A DNA stretch of 35,499 nt, from assembly GCA_030525945.1 (NCBI GenBank), contig JAUNDT010000015.1:1-35499 (forward strand), in the 5' to 3' direction. This DNA comes from Coriobacteriaceae bacterium. Lineage in GTDB: Bacteria > Actinomycetota > Coriobacteriia > Coriobacteriales > Coriobacteriaceae. The number at the start of each line of letters is the position of its first letter. Positions within the stretch are counted from its first letter, which is position 1. This document shows positions 9,678 to 13,687 of the stretch, in pieces. Made by a program: the position numbers and the translations under genes. A model generated the notes under the pieces. The model made no database searches and was not told the origin of the DNA. It saw only the letters and a program-made list of their open reading frames with translations.

Positions 9678-10385
9678 CTACAGTCGCTGCATGCGGTATC
9701 CCACGCCCACGTGCGTCTGGATGAGCTGCGGGTGCGCGGGGTCGGCCTCGATCTTCTTGCGCAGCGTCCGCATGAACACGCGCAGGCTGGCGATGTCGCT
9801 GTCCCAGCTCGTGCCCCAGATCTCGCGCGTGATGAACGTGTGGGTGAGCACCTTGCCAGCGTTGCGCGCCAACAGCGCCAGCAGCTTGTACTCGGTGGGG
9901 GTGAGGCCGAGCTGCTCGCCGCCCAGGTAGGCGCAGCCCGCCGCATAATCGATGCGCAGCGGCCCGTTCTCGAATACGCTCTCGTCCGCCGCGCCGCCGC
10001 CCGCCAGCTGCGAGCGGCGCAGGCTCGCCCGCACGCGCGCCAACAGCTCGTCCACGGAGAAGGGCTTGGTGAGGTAGTCATCGGCCCCGGCATCGAGCGC
10101 GCGGATCTTGTCGGCGTCCTCGGCGCGCGCGGAGATGACGATGATCGGTACGGCTGACCACCCGCGCACCTTCTCGATCACATCCACGCCGTCGATGTCG
10201 GGCAGGCCCAGGTCGAGCATGATGAGGTCGGGGTGGTGCGAGGCGGCGGCGAGCACGGCGGCCTCGCCCGTAACGGCGACGTCCAGGTGGTAGCCGTGCA
10301 TCTCGAGCGCGGTGGTCACCAGGTTGCGCACCGCGCCGTCGTCCTCGACCACCAAAATCGTGTGCTGCGCAGATGCCTCACTCAT
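9678..10385 (-). CDS. kdpE: KdpE response regulator
   Basis: The 235-residue OmpR/PhoB-family regulator should activate kdpFABC after phosphotransfer from KdpD. The receiver domain (about 8-120) has the acidic pair VVEDD (13-15 region), the phospho-acceptor Asp58 in IMLDLGLPD, and the conserved Lys in YLTKPFSVDEL. The C-terminal winged-helix domain includes LTPTEYKLLALLARNAGKVLT... and ends in VGVGYRMQRL, typical of the family. ATG 10385 overlaps the end of kdpD by eight bases, so the two are translationally coupled, in the order kdpD then kdpE. The target genes lie divergently beyond kdpD. Confidence 0.96.
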   Translation of the reverse strand: MSEASAQHTILVVEDDGAVRNLVTTALEMHGYHLDVAVTGEAAVLAAASHHPDLIMLDLGLPDIDGVDVIEKVRGWSAVPIIVISARAEDADKIRALDAGADDYLTKPFSVDELLARVRASLRRSQLAGGGAADESVFENGPLRIDYAAGCAYLGGEQLGLTPTEYKLLALLARNAGKVLTHTFITREIWGTSWDSDIASLRVFMRTLRKKIEADPAHPQLIQTHVGVGYRMQRL

Positions 10386-13110
10386 GAATCTCTACCTCCT
10401 CGCCCGCCAGCGTAAAGCGGAACACCGCCCCGTGCGGCACGTTGTCGAACACGCCAATGGTACCGCCATGCGCCTCGATGATGGAGCGGCAAAGCGACAG
10501 TCCCAGCCCAAAGCTGCGATGCGAGTCCACGGGCAGCGAGTTGGACGCGATGAAGAACCGGTCGAAGATCCGTGGCTTGTCCTCGTCCGCCACGCCGGGG
10601 CCATCGTCCGCTACCTCCACGACCACGTTCTGGCCCGACCGGAACGAGCGCACCGTGATCGTTGACCCGGTCGGCGTGTACTTGAGCCCGTTCACGATGA
10701 GGTTCGTGAGCACCTGCATGATCAGGTGCACGTCGATGCGCACGAGCAGCAGGTCGTCGGTGTGCTCCATCACCACCGTGTGGCCGGACGTCTCGCGCGT
10801 GACGTGCGCGAGCGCCTCGGAGATCACCTCGTCCATGAGCTCGGAGGTGAGGTTGAGCTTCATGTCGCCGTCCTCGATGCGCGTGACGGCCAGCAGGTTC
10901 TCCACCGTGTCGATGAGCCACAGCGAGTCGTCGTAGATGGCGTTCGCGAGTTCGTGGCGCTTGGCCGGGCCGAGCTGCCCCGTGTCCTCGCGGAGAATCC
11001 CCGCCGAGCCGGAGATGGACGTGAGCGGCGTGCGCAGGTCGTGCCCGATGGAGCGCAGCAGGTTGGCGCGGAGTTGCTCGTTTTTGGCGAGCACGGCGGC
11101 CTCCTCGCGCTCGCGGGCTGCCTGGTCGCTCTCGAGCGCGAGCGCGGCCTCGCCCACGATGGAGAGCATGATGGAGTTCTCGAACGCCTCGAGGGGCCGC
11201 TTGCCGATGGCCAGGCCCACCACGCCGAACACGCGCCCACCGGCGCGCACGGCCAGGTACAGGCAGCGCGCCTCGGGCAGGGTGCTGGTGCTGGCGCCCG
11301 CGTGCTTGTTGTTCGTGAACGCCCACATCGCCACGGCGCGCTCGTAGTCGCCGACGAGCTCGCCGTGCTCGTGCTCGGTACCCGCGCCCTGGTAGAGTGG
11401 CTCGCCCAGACCCTCGCCCTCGGCGGGGTAGAACACCACGTCCACGCGCAGGAGCTTGATGAGTTGGCTCATCATGACGCGCGCCCGCGCCTCGAGGCCC
11501 TGTTCCTGTTGGAGCAGCTGGTTCGTCTCCAGTAGCACACGCGTGCGGTAGGCGTTCTTGGCGCTCGCACGGGCGTTGTCGGTGATGCGCGCGGTGAGCT
11601 CGGCCGCCACCATGGCGGTCACGAACATGATGGCGAAGGTGACGAGGTAACTTTTGTCGAAGCTCTCGAGCGAGAGGATAGGCGTGACGAAGCAGAAGTT
11701 GTAGAGCACCACGGACAGCACACTCGACAACAGGGTGCACAGCCGTCCCTCGGTGGTGACGGCGGTGAGCAGCGCCGTGAGGATGTACAGCGAGATGATA
11801 CTCGAGTCCGCGAAGCCGAAGGAGCGGAAGCCCAGGCCGATGCCGGTGGCGATGGCGGCGAGCCCCACGGTGCGGGCGACGTCGCGCGTGCGGGGCATGT
11901 CGGGTGCCTCCTGGCGCGCGGCGTGGCGCTCGATGGCGCGTGCGCTCGTCTGGTCGGGGATGATGTAGATGTCGAGGTTGGGCGCGATGGCGATGAGCTG
12001 CTCGATCAGCGACTTCTTGCCGAATAGCGCCCGGCGTGCGCCGCTCGTCTCGCCCGTGCGGCCCATGACGATCTTCGAGATGCCGGAGAGCCGCGCGAAC
12101 TCGGCGATCTGGAACGCGACGTCGTCGCCGTAGACCGACTCCACGTGCGCCCCGAGTTGCTCGGCGAGCGCCATGTTCTGCTGTAGACGCTCGCGGTCCC
12201 CATCGCTCATGGCCTGGGTGTGCGGGCTTTCCACGAACAGAGCCGTGAGCTGCCCGTGGAACGCCTTGGCCATGCGCGCGGCCGTGCGCACGATGCGCGG
12301 GTTGGTGGGCGCGGGGGAGACGCACACGAGGATGTGCTCGCTCGTATAGTAGTCGCGGTTGCCGATCACGCGCGCGGCGTCGGCCAGGCGGCCCATGCGG
12401 TCGGCGCACTTGCGCAGGGCGATCTCGCGCAGGGCGGTGAGGTTCTCCACGGTGAAGAAGTTGTCCTGGGCGCGCTCGGCCTGGGTCTCGCGGTAGACGA
12501 GGCCCGCCTGCAGGCGCTCGAGCAGGTCGCTCGGCTCGATGTCCACGAGCTCGACCTGGTCGGCGTCATCGAAGACGCGGTCGGGGATGCGCTCGCGCAC
12601 GATGACGCCGGTGATGGCGGCAACCATATCGTTCAGGCTCTCGATGTGCTGCACGTTGACCGTGGTGTATACGTCGATGCCCGCGCGCAGGAGCTCCTCG
12701 ACGTCCTGGTAGCGCTTGGCATGACGGCAGCCCGGGGCATTGGTGTGGGCGAGCTCATCGACGAGGATGAGCTGCGGGGCGCGCATGATGGCGGCGTCCA
12801 GGTCGAATTCGCGCAGGGTGATGCCGTTGTGATCCACGAGCTCATGCGGGACCTGCTCCAGGCCGCGCGCGAGCCGCGCCGTGGCGGGACGTTCGTGCGG
12901 CTCGATGTAGCCGGCCACCACGTCCACGCCGCGCTTGCGCGCCGCATGGGCCGCCTGCAGCATGGCGTAGGTCTTGCCTACGCCCGCCGCGTAGCCGAAG
13001 AAGATCTTGAGGTGCCCGCGCCGTTCGCGCTGGGCGGCCTGATCGTCCTGCTCAATCGCGCGTAGCAGCCTATCGGGATCGACGCGGGTGTCCGATGCGT
13101 CTCGCGGCAT
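10378..13110 (-). CDS. kdpD: KdpD osmosensitive K+ channel sensor histidine kinase
   Basis: The 910-residue membrane histidine kinase senses potassium limitation and phosphorylates KdpE. The N-terminal KdpD domain has Walker A GYAAGVGKTYAM (39-50) and the family segment GYIEPHERP. A universal-stress-type domain follows (ILVCVSPAPTNPR onward), then four closely packed transmembrane helices, a GAF-like region, and the kinase core. The core has the H-box SIGHDLRTPLTS (His near 690), N-box NLIVNGLKYTP, and G-boxes ADDGPG and FGLGLSL. I chose ATG 13110 because AAGGAG lies just upstream and the N-terminus then matches the family; a longer in-frame ATG at 13191 would sit inside a large hairpin. Its 5' leader contains a conserved structured element (13130-13250). 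Confidence 0.96.
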   Translation of the reverse strand: MPRDASDTRVDPDRLLRAIEQDDQAAQRERRGHLKIFFGYAAGVGKTYAMLQAAHAARKRGVDVVAGYIEPHERPATARLARGLEQVPHELVDHNGITLREFDLDAAIMRAPQLILVDELAHTNAPGCRHAKRYQDVEELLRAGIDVYTTVNVQHIESLNDMVAAITGVIVRERIPDRVFDDADQVELVDIEPSDLLERLQAGLVYRETQAERAQDNFFTVENLTALREIALRKCADRMGRLADAARVIGNRDYYTSEHILVCVSPAPTNPRIVRTAARMAKAFHGQLTALFVESPHTQAMSDGDRERLQQNMALAEQLGAHVESVYGDDVAFQIAEFARLSGISKIVMGRTGETSGARRALFGKKSLIEQLIAIAPNLDIYIIPDQTSARAIERHAARQEAPDMPRTRDVARTVGLAAIATGIGLGFRSFGFADSSIISLYILTALLTAVTTEGRLCTLLSSVLSVVLYNFCFVTPILSLESFDKSYLVTFAIMFVTAMVAAELTARITDNARASAKNAYRTRVLLETNQLLQQEQGLEARARVMMSQLIKLLRVDVVFYPAEGEGLGEPLYQGAGTEHEHGELVGDYERAVAMWAFTNNKHAGASTSTLPEARCLYLAVRAGGRVFGVVGLAIGKRPLEAFENSIMLSIVGEAALALESDQAAREREEAAVLAKNEQLRANLLRSIGHDLRTPLTSISGSAGILREDTGQLGPAKRHELANAIYDDSLWLIDTVENLLAVTRIEDGDMKLNLTSELMDEVISEALAHVTRETSGHTVVMEHTDDLLLVRIDVHLIMQVLTNLIVNGLKYTPTGSTITVRSFRSGQNVVVEVADDGPGVADEDKPRIFDRFFIASNSLPVDSHRSFGLGLSLCRSIIEAHGGTIGVFDNVPHGAVFRFTLAGEEVEIHE

Positions 13111-13129
13111 GGCTTTCTCCTTCCCGGGT

Positions 13130-13250
13130 GGTCTCCAGGCGGACCCATAGCATCCGCTGCTCGGGCAGTCCTGCTCGCACGGACCGTCCACTGGACGGTC
13201 CGGCTCGTGCGGAACTCGCGACGGACGCTATGGGTCCGCCCGGAGGCCCA
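13130..13250. repeat. Large hairpin element 1, kdpD 5' leader
   Basis: The outer arms GGCGGACCCATAGC and GCTATGGGTCCGCC pair near-perfectly. An inner 10-bp perfect palindrome with a one-base centre spans 13181-13201 (core GTCCACTGGAC). Between the stems are unpaired segments (13150-13172 and 13208-13228) that are conserved in element 2. It lies 20 bp upstream of the kdpD start codon. Confidence 0.8.
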
Positions 13251-13285
13251 TGCGCGGCCGTGGCTGGGCTTGTTTTGAGTCGGTG

Positions 13286-13409
13286 CCGGTCGGTGGGCGG
13301 GCGCACAACGTCCGTTGCGAGTTCCGCACGCAAAGGAGCGTCCAGTGGACGCTCCGTCTTGCGTAGGACTGTTCGAGCAGCGGATGTTGCGCGCCCACCC
13401 ACCGACCGC
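13286..13409. repeat. Large hairpin element 2, opposite orientation
   Basis: The outer arms CGGTCGGTGGGCGGGCGC and GCGCCCACCCACCGACCG pair closely, although their sequence differs completely from the element 1 arms. The centre is another perfect 10-bp palindrome (13335-13355) with the same core, GTCCAGTGGAC on this strand. Its internal segments, on the reverse strand, match those of element 1 at about 20 of 22 positions. The stems therefore vary while the internal segments are conserved. Confidence 0.8.
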
Positions 13410-13458
13410 TTGGGCATGAGTATAGCCCGCCGTCGCCGTATGCGACCGCCGTCTACCT

Positions 13459-13527
13459 GCATCTTTATGGCATCTTAACGCGAGTGCTCCCCATGTTTAC
13501 ACCGTCTTAAGACCCCAAGGCGTTTAC
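13459..13527 (+). promoter_or_regulatory. Candidate KdpE-binding region upstream of kdpF
   Basis: GCATCTTTATG (13459-13469) is directly followed by GCATCTTAACG (13470-13480). This is a head-to-tail repeat at 11-bp period, the usual binding geometry of OmpR/PhoB-family regulators. A second direct repeat of GTTTAC-N-GTC occurs at 13495 and 13522. The site lies 120-140 bp before kdpF. A clear -35/-10 pair was not found. Confidence 0.5.
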
Positions 13528-13600: not shown

Positions 13601-13687
13601 ATGGACGTTCTCATTCCCATCATTGGGCTGACCTGCATCGGTCTGCTGATCTACTACATCTATATCTTGATGAGGAGCGAGTCGTAA
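13601..13687 (+). CDS. kdpF: KdpF, small stabilising subunit
   Basis: The 28-residue peptide is a single transmembrane helix: MDVLIPIIGLTCIGLLIYYI followed by YILMRSES. Family members are about 29 residues long and stabilise the KdpABC complex. ATG 13601 is preceded by GAGGAAGG. The stop lies four bases before the kdpA ATG, and the kdpA SD (GAGGAG) lies inside kdpF. Position and length make the assignment firm despite the short sequence. Confidence 0.9.
   Translation: MDVLIPIIGLTCIGLLIYYIYILMRSES

Follow-up and report, generated by a model that had tools for sequence, protein, structure and literature searches.

The intergenic region between kdpD and kdpF-kdpA in a Coriobacteriaceae bacterium contains two large palindromes, and the question raised by this locus is whether they are a structured RNA or a mobile repeat recognized as a hairpin, the two possibilities named in an earlier note on this DNA. 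The window, that is, the whole stretch of DNA analyzed, comprised 35,499 nucleotides (positions 1 to 35,499 of contig JAUNDT010000015.1, assembly GCA_030525945.1). Within it, kdpD (10378..13110, minus strand, called start 13110) and kdpF (13601..13687, plus strand, 28 aa, identified by eye) flank a gap of 490 bp; the kdpD and kdpF names came from protein sequence and gene order.

The first palindrome, copy 1 (13130..13248, plus strand), is 119 nt long, with a folded energy of -86.2 and a type B junction (CT-GCTC ... CGCG). It is composed of a left outer arm (13130..13158), whose outermost bases lie about 20 bp off the kdpD start, box 1 GCTCGGGCAGTCCT (13159..13172), for which the family form is GCTCNNNCAGTCCT, a variable inner tip hairpin (13173..13206) of the GCTCGCAC/GGCTC type around GTCCACTGGAC, box 2 GTGCGGAACT (13207..13216), and a right outer arm (13217..13248). 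A spacer of 38 bp (13249..13286) separates it from its convergent twin, copy 2 (13287..13408, minus strand), which is 122 nt long, has a folded energy of -92.1 and also carries a type B junction. Read on the minus strand, copy 2 consists of a left outer arm facing kdpF (13379..13408), box 1 GCTCGAACAGTCCT (13365..13378), a variable inner tip hairpin of the CGCAAGAC/TTTGC type (13330..13364), box 2 GTGCGGAACT (13320..13329), and a right outer arm (13287..13319). The earlier note had described two elements of about 120 bp in opposite orientation, with nearly identical inner segments and core, the first lying about 20 bp before the kdpD start, and the data confirmed this description in size, strand, boxes, GTCCACTGGAC tip and position. 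Its statement that the outer stems "differ entirely" was overstated: the 8 nt adjoining the core (CATCCGCT) are identical, and the left arms, aligned from the core, agree at 19 of 29 positions.

Further copies were present outside the window, and they form a dispersed family. A lax pattern allowing up to 3 mismatches gave 25 matches in the window genome (G000, 1.88 Mb, 23 contigs), while the reversed control pattern gave 3. One of the 25 (L023) was dropped, being no such hairpin, and the hairpin at L014 in the same genome looks truncated. A pattern scan of named genomes gave at least 112 matching stretches; among the 80 matches listed, nearly all were from Coriobacteriia (Collinsella, Adlercreutzia, Slackia, Gordonibacter, Enorma, Parvibacter, Ellagibacter and unnamed relatives), and the clear exceptions were MAGs labelled Candidatus Hydrogenedentota (L054) and Corynebacterium (L080). 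Of 296 sampled Coriobacteriia genomes, 77 had the exact core and none had the control; all 77 are Coriobacteriales, the order of the window. A looser core was present in 22 of 396 genomes of the phylum, with one control match (G505); this set included single copies in L311, which belongs to another order of the class, and in L310, from a different class. The looser-core search also showed 41 exact copies of a tip variant in G036.

A covariance model was built from 40 diverse copies. In the window it gave two strong matches (E 1e-20 and 1e-16), with 88.4 bits for copy 1, a score that is partly by construction because copy 1 was among the 40 input sequences, and 72.6 bits for copy 2; two weak matches (E 0.14 and 0.15) were opposite-strand echoes of the twin hairpins. 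Counted at E up to 0.001, with partial matches included and in genomes chosen because copies were present in them, the model found 53 matches in G036, 33 in G304 (a Gordonibacter record), 32 in G142, 31 in G303 (a Collinsella stercoris record), 28 in G306, 25 in G301 (the Hydrogenedentota-labelled MAG of L054), 23 in G155, 8 in G305 and 1 in G302. This last match, in the Corynebacterium MAG of L080, may come from a misbinned contig. The copy number was uneven, since several same-genus genomes had no exact core, against the 53 model matches in G036. Among 120 Hydrogenedentota genomes, one was positive, and this was G301 itself. No viral contig matched the first pattern, the two that matched the looser pattern had no such hairpin by eye, and phages gave no match. 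Three records of a plasmid collection matched, one from Collinsella covering 89% of the query and two from Rhodococcus covering 39%. In the same collection, the 900-kb Collinsella aerofaciens record NZ_OY725717.1 had six places matching the hairpin query. A hairpin was also seen between two genes that, judged by their sequence ends, we take to be pheS and pheT in five Eggerthellaceae-type loci (L043, L044, L069, L105 and L134), with three junction types and both orientations, and this gap is a recurrent landing place.

Across the family, the boxes GCTCNNNCAGTCCT and TGCGGAACT were nearly fixed, whereas the tip and an outer stem of about 20-45 bp were free in sequence yet self-paired. Part of the apparent invariance of the boxes comes from the search patterns, which required them, but pairing was not imposed in this way. 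Three junction types were distinguished, each with matched left and right ends. For each type, when all copies were tested against a null in which arms were exchanged between copies, the outer arms paired well above the null at most positions up to about 25-30. The three junction types are out of register with one another, so that RNAalifold run on a mixed alignment did not detect the outer stem, and pairing was therefore measured per type. In 29 type B copies with unrelated left arms and 21 outer pairs, 93.4% of cells were standard pairs, compared with 49.9% (sd 1.6) in shuffles and 37-46% when the partner was slid by 1-3 columns. The number of cells changed on both sides was 257 against 74.5 in shuffles, and the covariation score was 1.066, with 0.229 in shuffles; the simple number of double-change pairs (21) did not exceed that of shuffles (19.9). 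These data showed that what is conserved in the hairpin stem is the pairing, whereas the sequence is not. The claim that the stems pair with themselves though their sequences differ was thus borne out by the covariation test, and the outcome that would have spoken against it, homologues keeping the stem sequence and not the pairing, was the reverse of what was observed.

Strong covariation around near-fixed loops is what would be expected if the element were a structured RNA (a leader, an attenuator, a 3' processing signal or an sRNA) whose stems covary to keep an RNA fold. If selection acted on an RNA, G·U should be favoured above A·C on the strand that is transcribed. Over 127 distinct outer stems, however, Watson-Crick pairs numbered 3246, G·T 116 and A·C 179, so that G·T was not above A·C; the distinct tips had 14 of each. 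By junction type, the G·T and A·C counts were 52 and 65 in type A, 49 and 55 in type B, and 15 and 59 in type C, with neither strand clearly favoured in types A and B and A·C commoner in type C. In 34 distinct tRNAs of the same loci, G·T made up 63 of 738 drawn pairs, the tRNA program drawing standard pairs only, so that its A·C count is no control. The covariation therefore does not look RNA-driven.

The position of the copies relative to genes was also analyzed, with genes called by a purpose-built codon model. Of 93 sites, 77 lay outside called genes, and the 16 inside were excluded from the strand tally. At the 77 non-redundant intergenic sites, both flanking genes ran with the motif in 29 cases and against it in 24, while 16 sites lay between convergent and 8 between divergent genes; such near equality of strands, with convergent and divergent sites besides, does not favour the RNA explanation. 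One feature of position speaks for it, in that the left arm of a sense-oriented copy often starts right past a stop codon: at sites where both genes ran with the motif, the left side was the nearer one in 25 of 28 (median distance 47 nt on the left and 188 nt on the right), while sites with both genes against the motif showed little of this (15 of 23). Rfam gave no match at gathering score in the whole window, and two chance-level matches far below gathering score (E 0.47 and 0.93) in 13050-13480. Whole copies are, moreover, missing at orthologous sites, as described below. Structured RNA was rejected as the main reading for want of an Rfam match, a G·T excess and a gene-strand preference, and we regard it as improbable. 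Of the two possibilities that the earlier note had left side by side, the hairpin-recognized mobile repeat was supported by dispersed copies, a filled and empty site and 9-bp duplications in G301, and the structured RNA was not supported by the Rfam, G·T and strand results.

We also investigated whether the twin belongs to kdp loci as such. The model found it in 5 of 18 kdp loci, namely the window, a second kdp locus of G000, G274, and both loci of G299. It found no copy in the other 13; for 7 of these the stretch searched was shown to include the start of kdpD, and five empty gaps were inspected directly. A fixed role of the hairpin in the kdpD leader is unlikely because the model had no match in these 13 of 18 loci, and we propose no host function at kdp. 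The second kdp cluster of G000 (L166, G000:C3:8563) is on a 12.6-kb contig and is 89% identical over 641 bp. G299 has two kdp clusters on a single contig (L151 and L167), which makes a true second copy in G000 possible, rather than contamination.

Presence and absence were clearest at a Collinsella site. There, a segment of about 155 bp that is present in L124 and L045, and that comprises both arms, is missing from the orthologous L079, L120 and L096; the flanks of these three are 91/91%, 92/91% and 89/76% identical to those of L124. Since both arms are missing from the empty allele, this one clean Collinsella case rules out, for that site, arms that grew from the target by fold-back copying as well as a landing in a palindrome that was already there. 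At other fixed sites, parts of the element had been exchanged. The orthologous alleles L030 and L052 had identical arms and different tips, L028 and L035 had wholly different arms between flanks that were 100 and 95% identical, and in L076 and L146 the middle of both arms was replaced. At kdp, element 2 is of type B in the window and, by eye, of type A in L166, L150, L151 and L167. We infer that copies exchange or convert each other's arms and tips, possibly aided by hairpin template switching.

The same observations could come from old palindromes without current mobility, kept perfect by template switching at replication forks, with homologous recombination and deletion accounting for the differences between strains. 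Template-switch correction of quasi-palindromes is established in bacteria, and this explanation also accommodates arms and tips that change together at fixed sites between strains, and the lack of a clear fixed-length target duplication in Coriobacteriales. On this last point, 172 Coriobacteriales copies were flanked by shared 8-, 9- and 10-mers in 24, 8 and 6 cases, against means of 12.1, 3.8 and 1.4 and maxima of 19, 10 and 4 in 50 shuffles, which is a slight excess with no fixed length; the L013 case consists of two flanking REPs. However, immobile palindromes leave unexplained the near-fixed boxes across orders and phyla, the empty site without arms and the target duplications in G301, and we consider this account unlikely, if somewhat less so than the RNA one. 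The mobility of the hairpin family is supported by the empty Collinsella site, the presence and absence of the kdp twin, and the G301 target duplications.

In G301, the same boxes were found inside a unit of 143-191 bp, whose left end is CAGCGATTCTCGGCG followed by its own inverted copy and whose right end is CACCGAGAATTGCTG. From 20 contigs read among the 25 matches, both ends were located for 15 units, and 13 of these 15 had a 9-bp flanking repeat with at least 7/9 matches (6 exact), while mismatched pairings as a control gave 0 of 210. Possibly, the G301 unit is another transposon into which the hairpin has been taken up. The same genome contains bare 33-bp elements (L303 and L304), in which two inverted ends enclose just AAA or TTT and which, by eye, are flanked by 9-bp target duplications; these are very small mobile units. 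A variant unit at the start of a contig (L294, G301:C164) has outer flanks that form a long inverted repeat at the contig start, and it is possibly an assembly artefact.

The orientation of the copies was analyzed with respect to each other, to genes and to replication. Close pairs (up to 450 bp apart) in five genomes were convergent in 19 of 21 cases, tandem in 2 and divergent in none, and the close pairs of G000 were convergent by eye in 5 of 5; the total of 24 of 26 is not made up of independent pairs, since the kdp twin contributes four of them, two from G000 and two from G303. The GCTC side was the one nearer a gene at 58 of 73 non-redundant single sites (p 4e-7) and in 3 of 4 twin members. 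Given this polarity, twins look like two copies, each of which would face its own gene. There was no overall bias in replication strand (62 leading and 50 lagging, p 0.30; G155 without skew data). In G304 alone, 26 of 33 copies were on the inferred leading strand, in long one-strand blocks. Lagging-strand insertion, which G304 suggested, was rejected, as it was not matched by G036 (19/41), G142 (10/24) or G303 (7/14).

Genome-wide copies, polarity at gene borders, convergent pairs and long-term conservation of the boxes would also suit a site for chromosome maintenance or recombination (attC-like, dif-like or a nucleoid mark) that is kept by host selection and moves only incidentally. Against this stand the wide variation in copy number described above and the lack of a general replication-strand rule, and a maintenance site seems to us highly improbable.

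Candidates for an enzyme that would act in trans were examined. Y1 transposases were absent from G304, G301 and G155, with their 33, 25 and 23 model matches, although many other hairpin-holding genomes do have a Y1 gene; RAYT/Y1 was accordingly rejected as the partner for these three copy-rich genomes. PF01609 had no match in G301, so that no partner of this transposase family was found there, G301 being a fragmented MAG in which the absence of an enzyme says little. Inspection by eye of the 25 largest clusters of genes neighbouring copies, and of the surroundings of the single copies in L310 and L311, led to no recognized transposase. The single Y1/RAYT-like gene of G000 (L026, G000:C2, about 99650) bears on both sides a different palindrome, AAATGCGTCATTTAGGGTC[A/T]GACCCTAAATGACGCATTTT, with small variations. 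This palindrome, which also adjoins some hairpins (L013, L014 and L025), is a separate REP system within G000.

The family was compared with known systems. REP/REPIN elements with RAYT use single-strand chemistry and are not known to show target-site duplications. MITE ends are conserved in sequence, and enterobacterial RU repeats are reportedly an example of a MITE. The hairpins resemble MITEs in being short, intergenic and palindromic, and the G301 form has inverted ends and 9-bp target duplications, so that terminal inverted repeats with a fixed-length duplication were found together in 13 of 15 units there. In contrast, Coriobacteriales copies have neither fixed inverted ends nor clear target duplications, and the outer arms are not conserved in sequence. 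In integron attC sites, the folded strand is recognized through unpaired bases and the terminal structure is variable. By analogy, the hairpins may be recognized in the same way, through unpaired bases of a folded strand with a variable terminal structure; unlike in attC, both stems are variable, and by eye the boxes match none of the attC core boxes known to us.

The REPIN description (PMC3116915, Bertels and Rainey 2011) presents a REP doublet hairpin with two conserved ends and a spacer in which compensatory changes are common, the doublets being mostly inverted (93% of 430). REPIN is the closest description of how the hairpin family works: both are extragenic miniature hairpins, those of our family being probably mobile too, with two conserved boxes flanking a paired spacer whose length and pairing are relevant. 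An extragenic palindrome, conserved end boxes and a variable paired spacer were all found here. However, the hairpin family adds a long, free, self-paired outer stem beyond the boxes, its boxes are imperfect inverted copies, single copies are common, and RAYT/Y1, to which REPINs are tied, is absent from the three copy-rich genomes. Mobile palindromic intergenic DNA is also described for GC clusters of yeast mitochondria (PMC4478555) and repetitive hairpin elements of sponges (PMC2800124), which share with our family a turnover at strain level and the merging and shuffling of hairpins. Those elements sit in organelle genomes, and the stems of GC42 are the constrained part of low diversity (PMC4478555), which is the opposite of the situation here. 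A screen for RNAs in the human microbiome (PMC8040213) lists 250 candidates that are palindromic, as well as a motif of Collinsella that lies upstream of L7/L12, and it is possible that the hairpin family is listed in its supplements. The main text of the REP survey PMC12306157 contains none of five Coriobacteriia terms, and no description of the family was found in searches of Rfam and of open-licence papers.

The best reading is likely a REPIN- or MITE-like miniature mobile hairpin. In our preferred explanation, which we hold to be probable, the family is a dispersed palindromic element with near-constant boxes and a free, self-complementary stem and tip, a miniature element moved in trans by a putative enzyme that would read the folded strand through the boxes. 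In Coriobacteriales, it would move as folded single-stranded or cruciform DNA. The boxes, which in the predicted fold form a UCNNR-type bulge opposite a short asymmetric loop, could be the points of contact for the enzyme. The arms would be kept perfect by hairpin template switching or by conversion from copy to copy, a suggestion made because whole arms or tips differ between strains at fixed sites. Convergent twins such as the kdp pair would arise because each copy settles at the border of a gene with its GCTC side outward.

A bolder version of this mechanism, tentative and on balance doubtful, is that the DNA is read by shape: an enzyme unlike known hairpin transposases would bind the two-box internal-loop signature in a folded strand and ignore the sequence of the stem. 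If so, whole stems and tips could be swapped between copies, and the element could pass from one phylum to another and also, as a prefabricated hairpin module, become part of other transposons, as in G301.

Strong covariation in stems is normally taken as a sign of structured RNA, but it arises here in apparently mobile DNA, and RNA screens in these genomes may therefore list the copies as RNAs. The repeat family formed by the hairpins is abundant in Collinsella, Gordonibacter, Slackia and their relatives, many of which are human gut bacteria. With near-fixed boxes set against free stems, the family offers a bait for the enzyme and a natural way to test how folded DNA is recognized by a protein.
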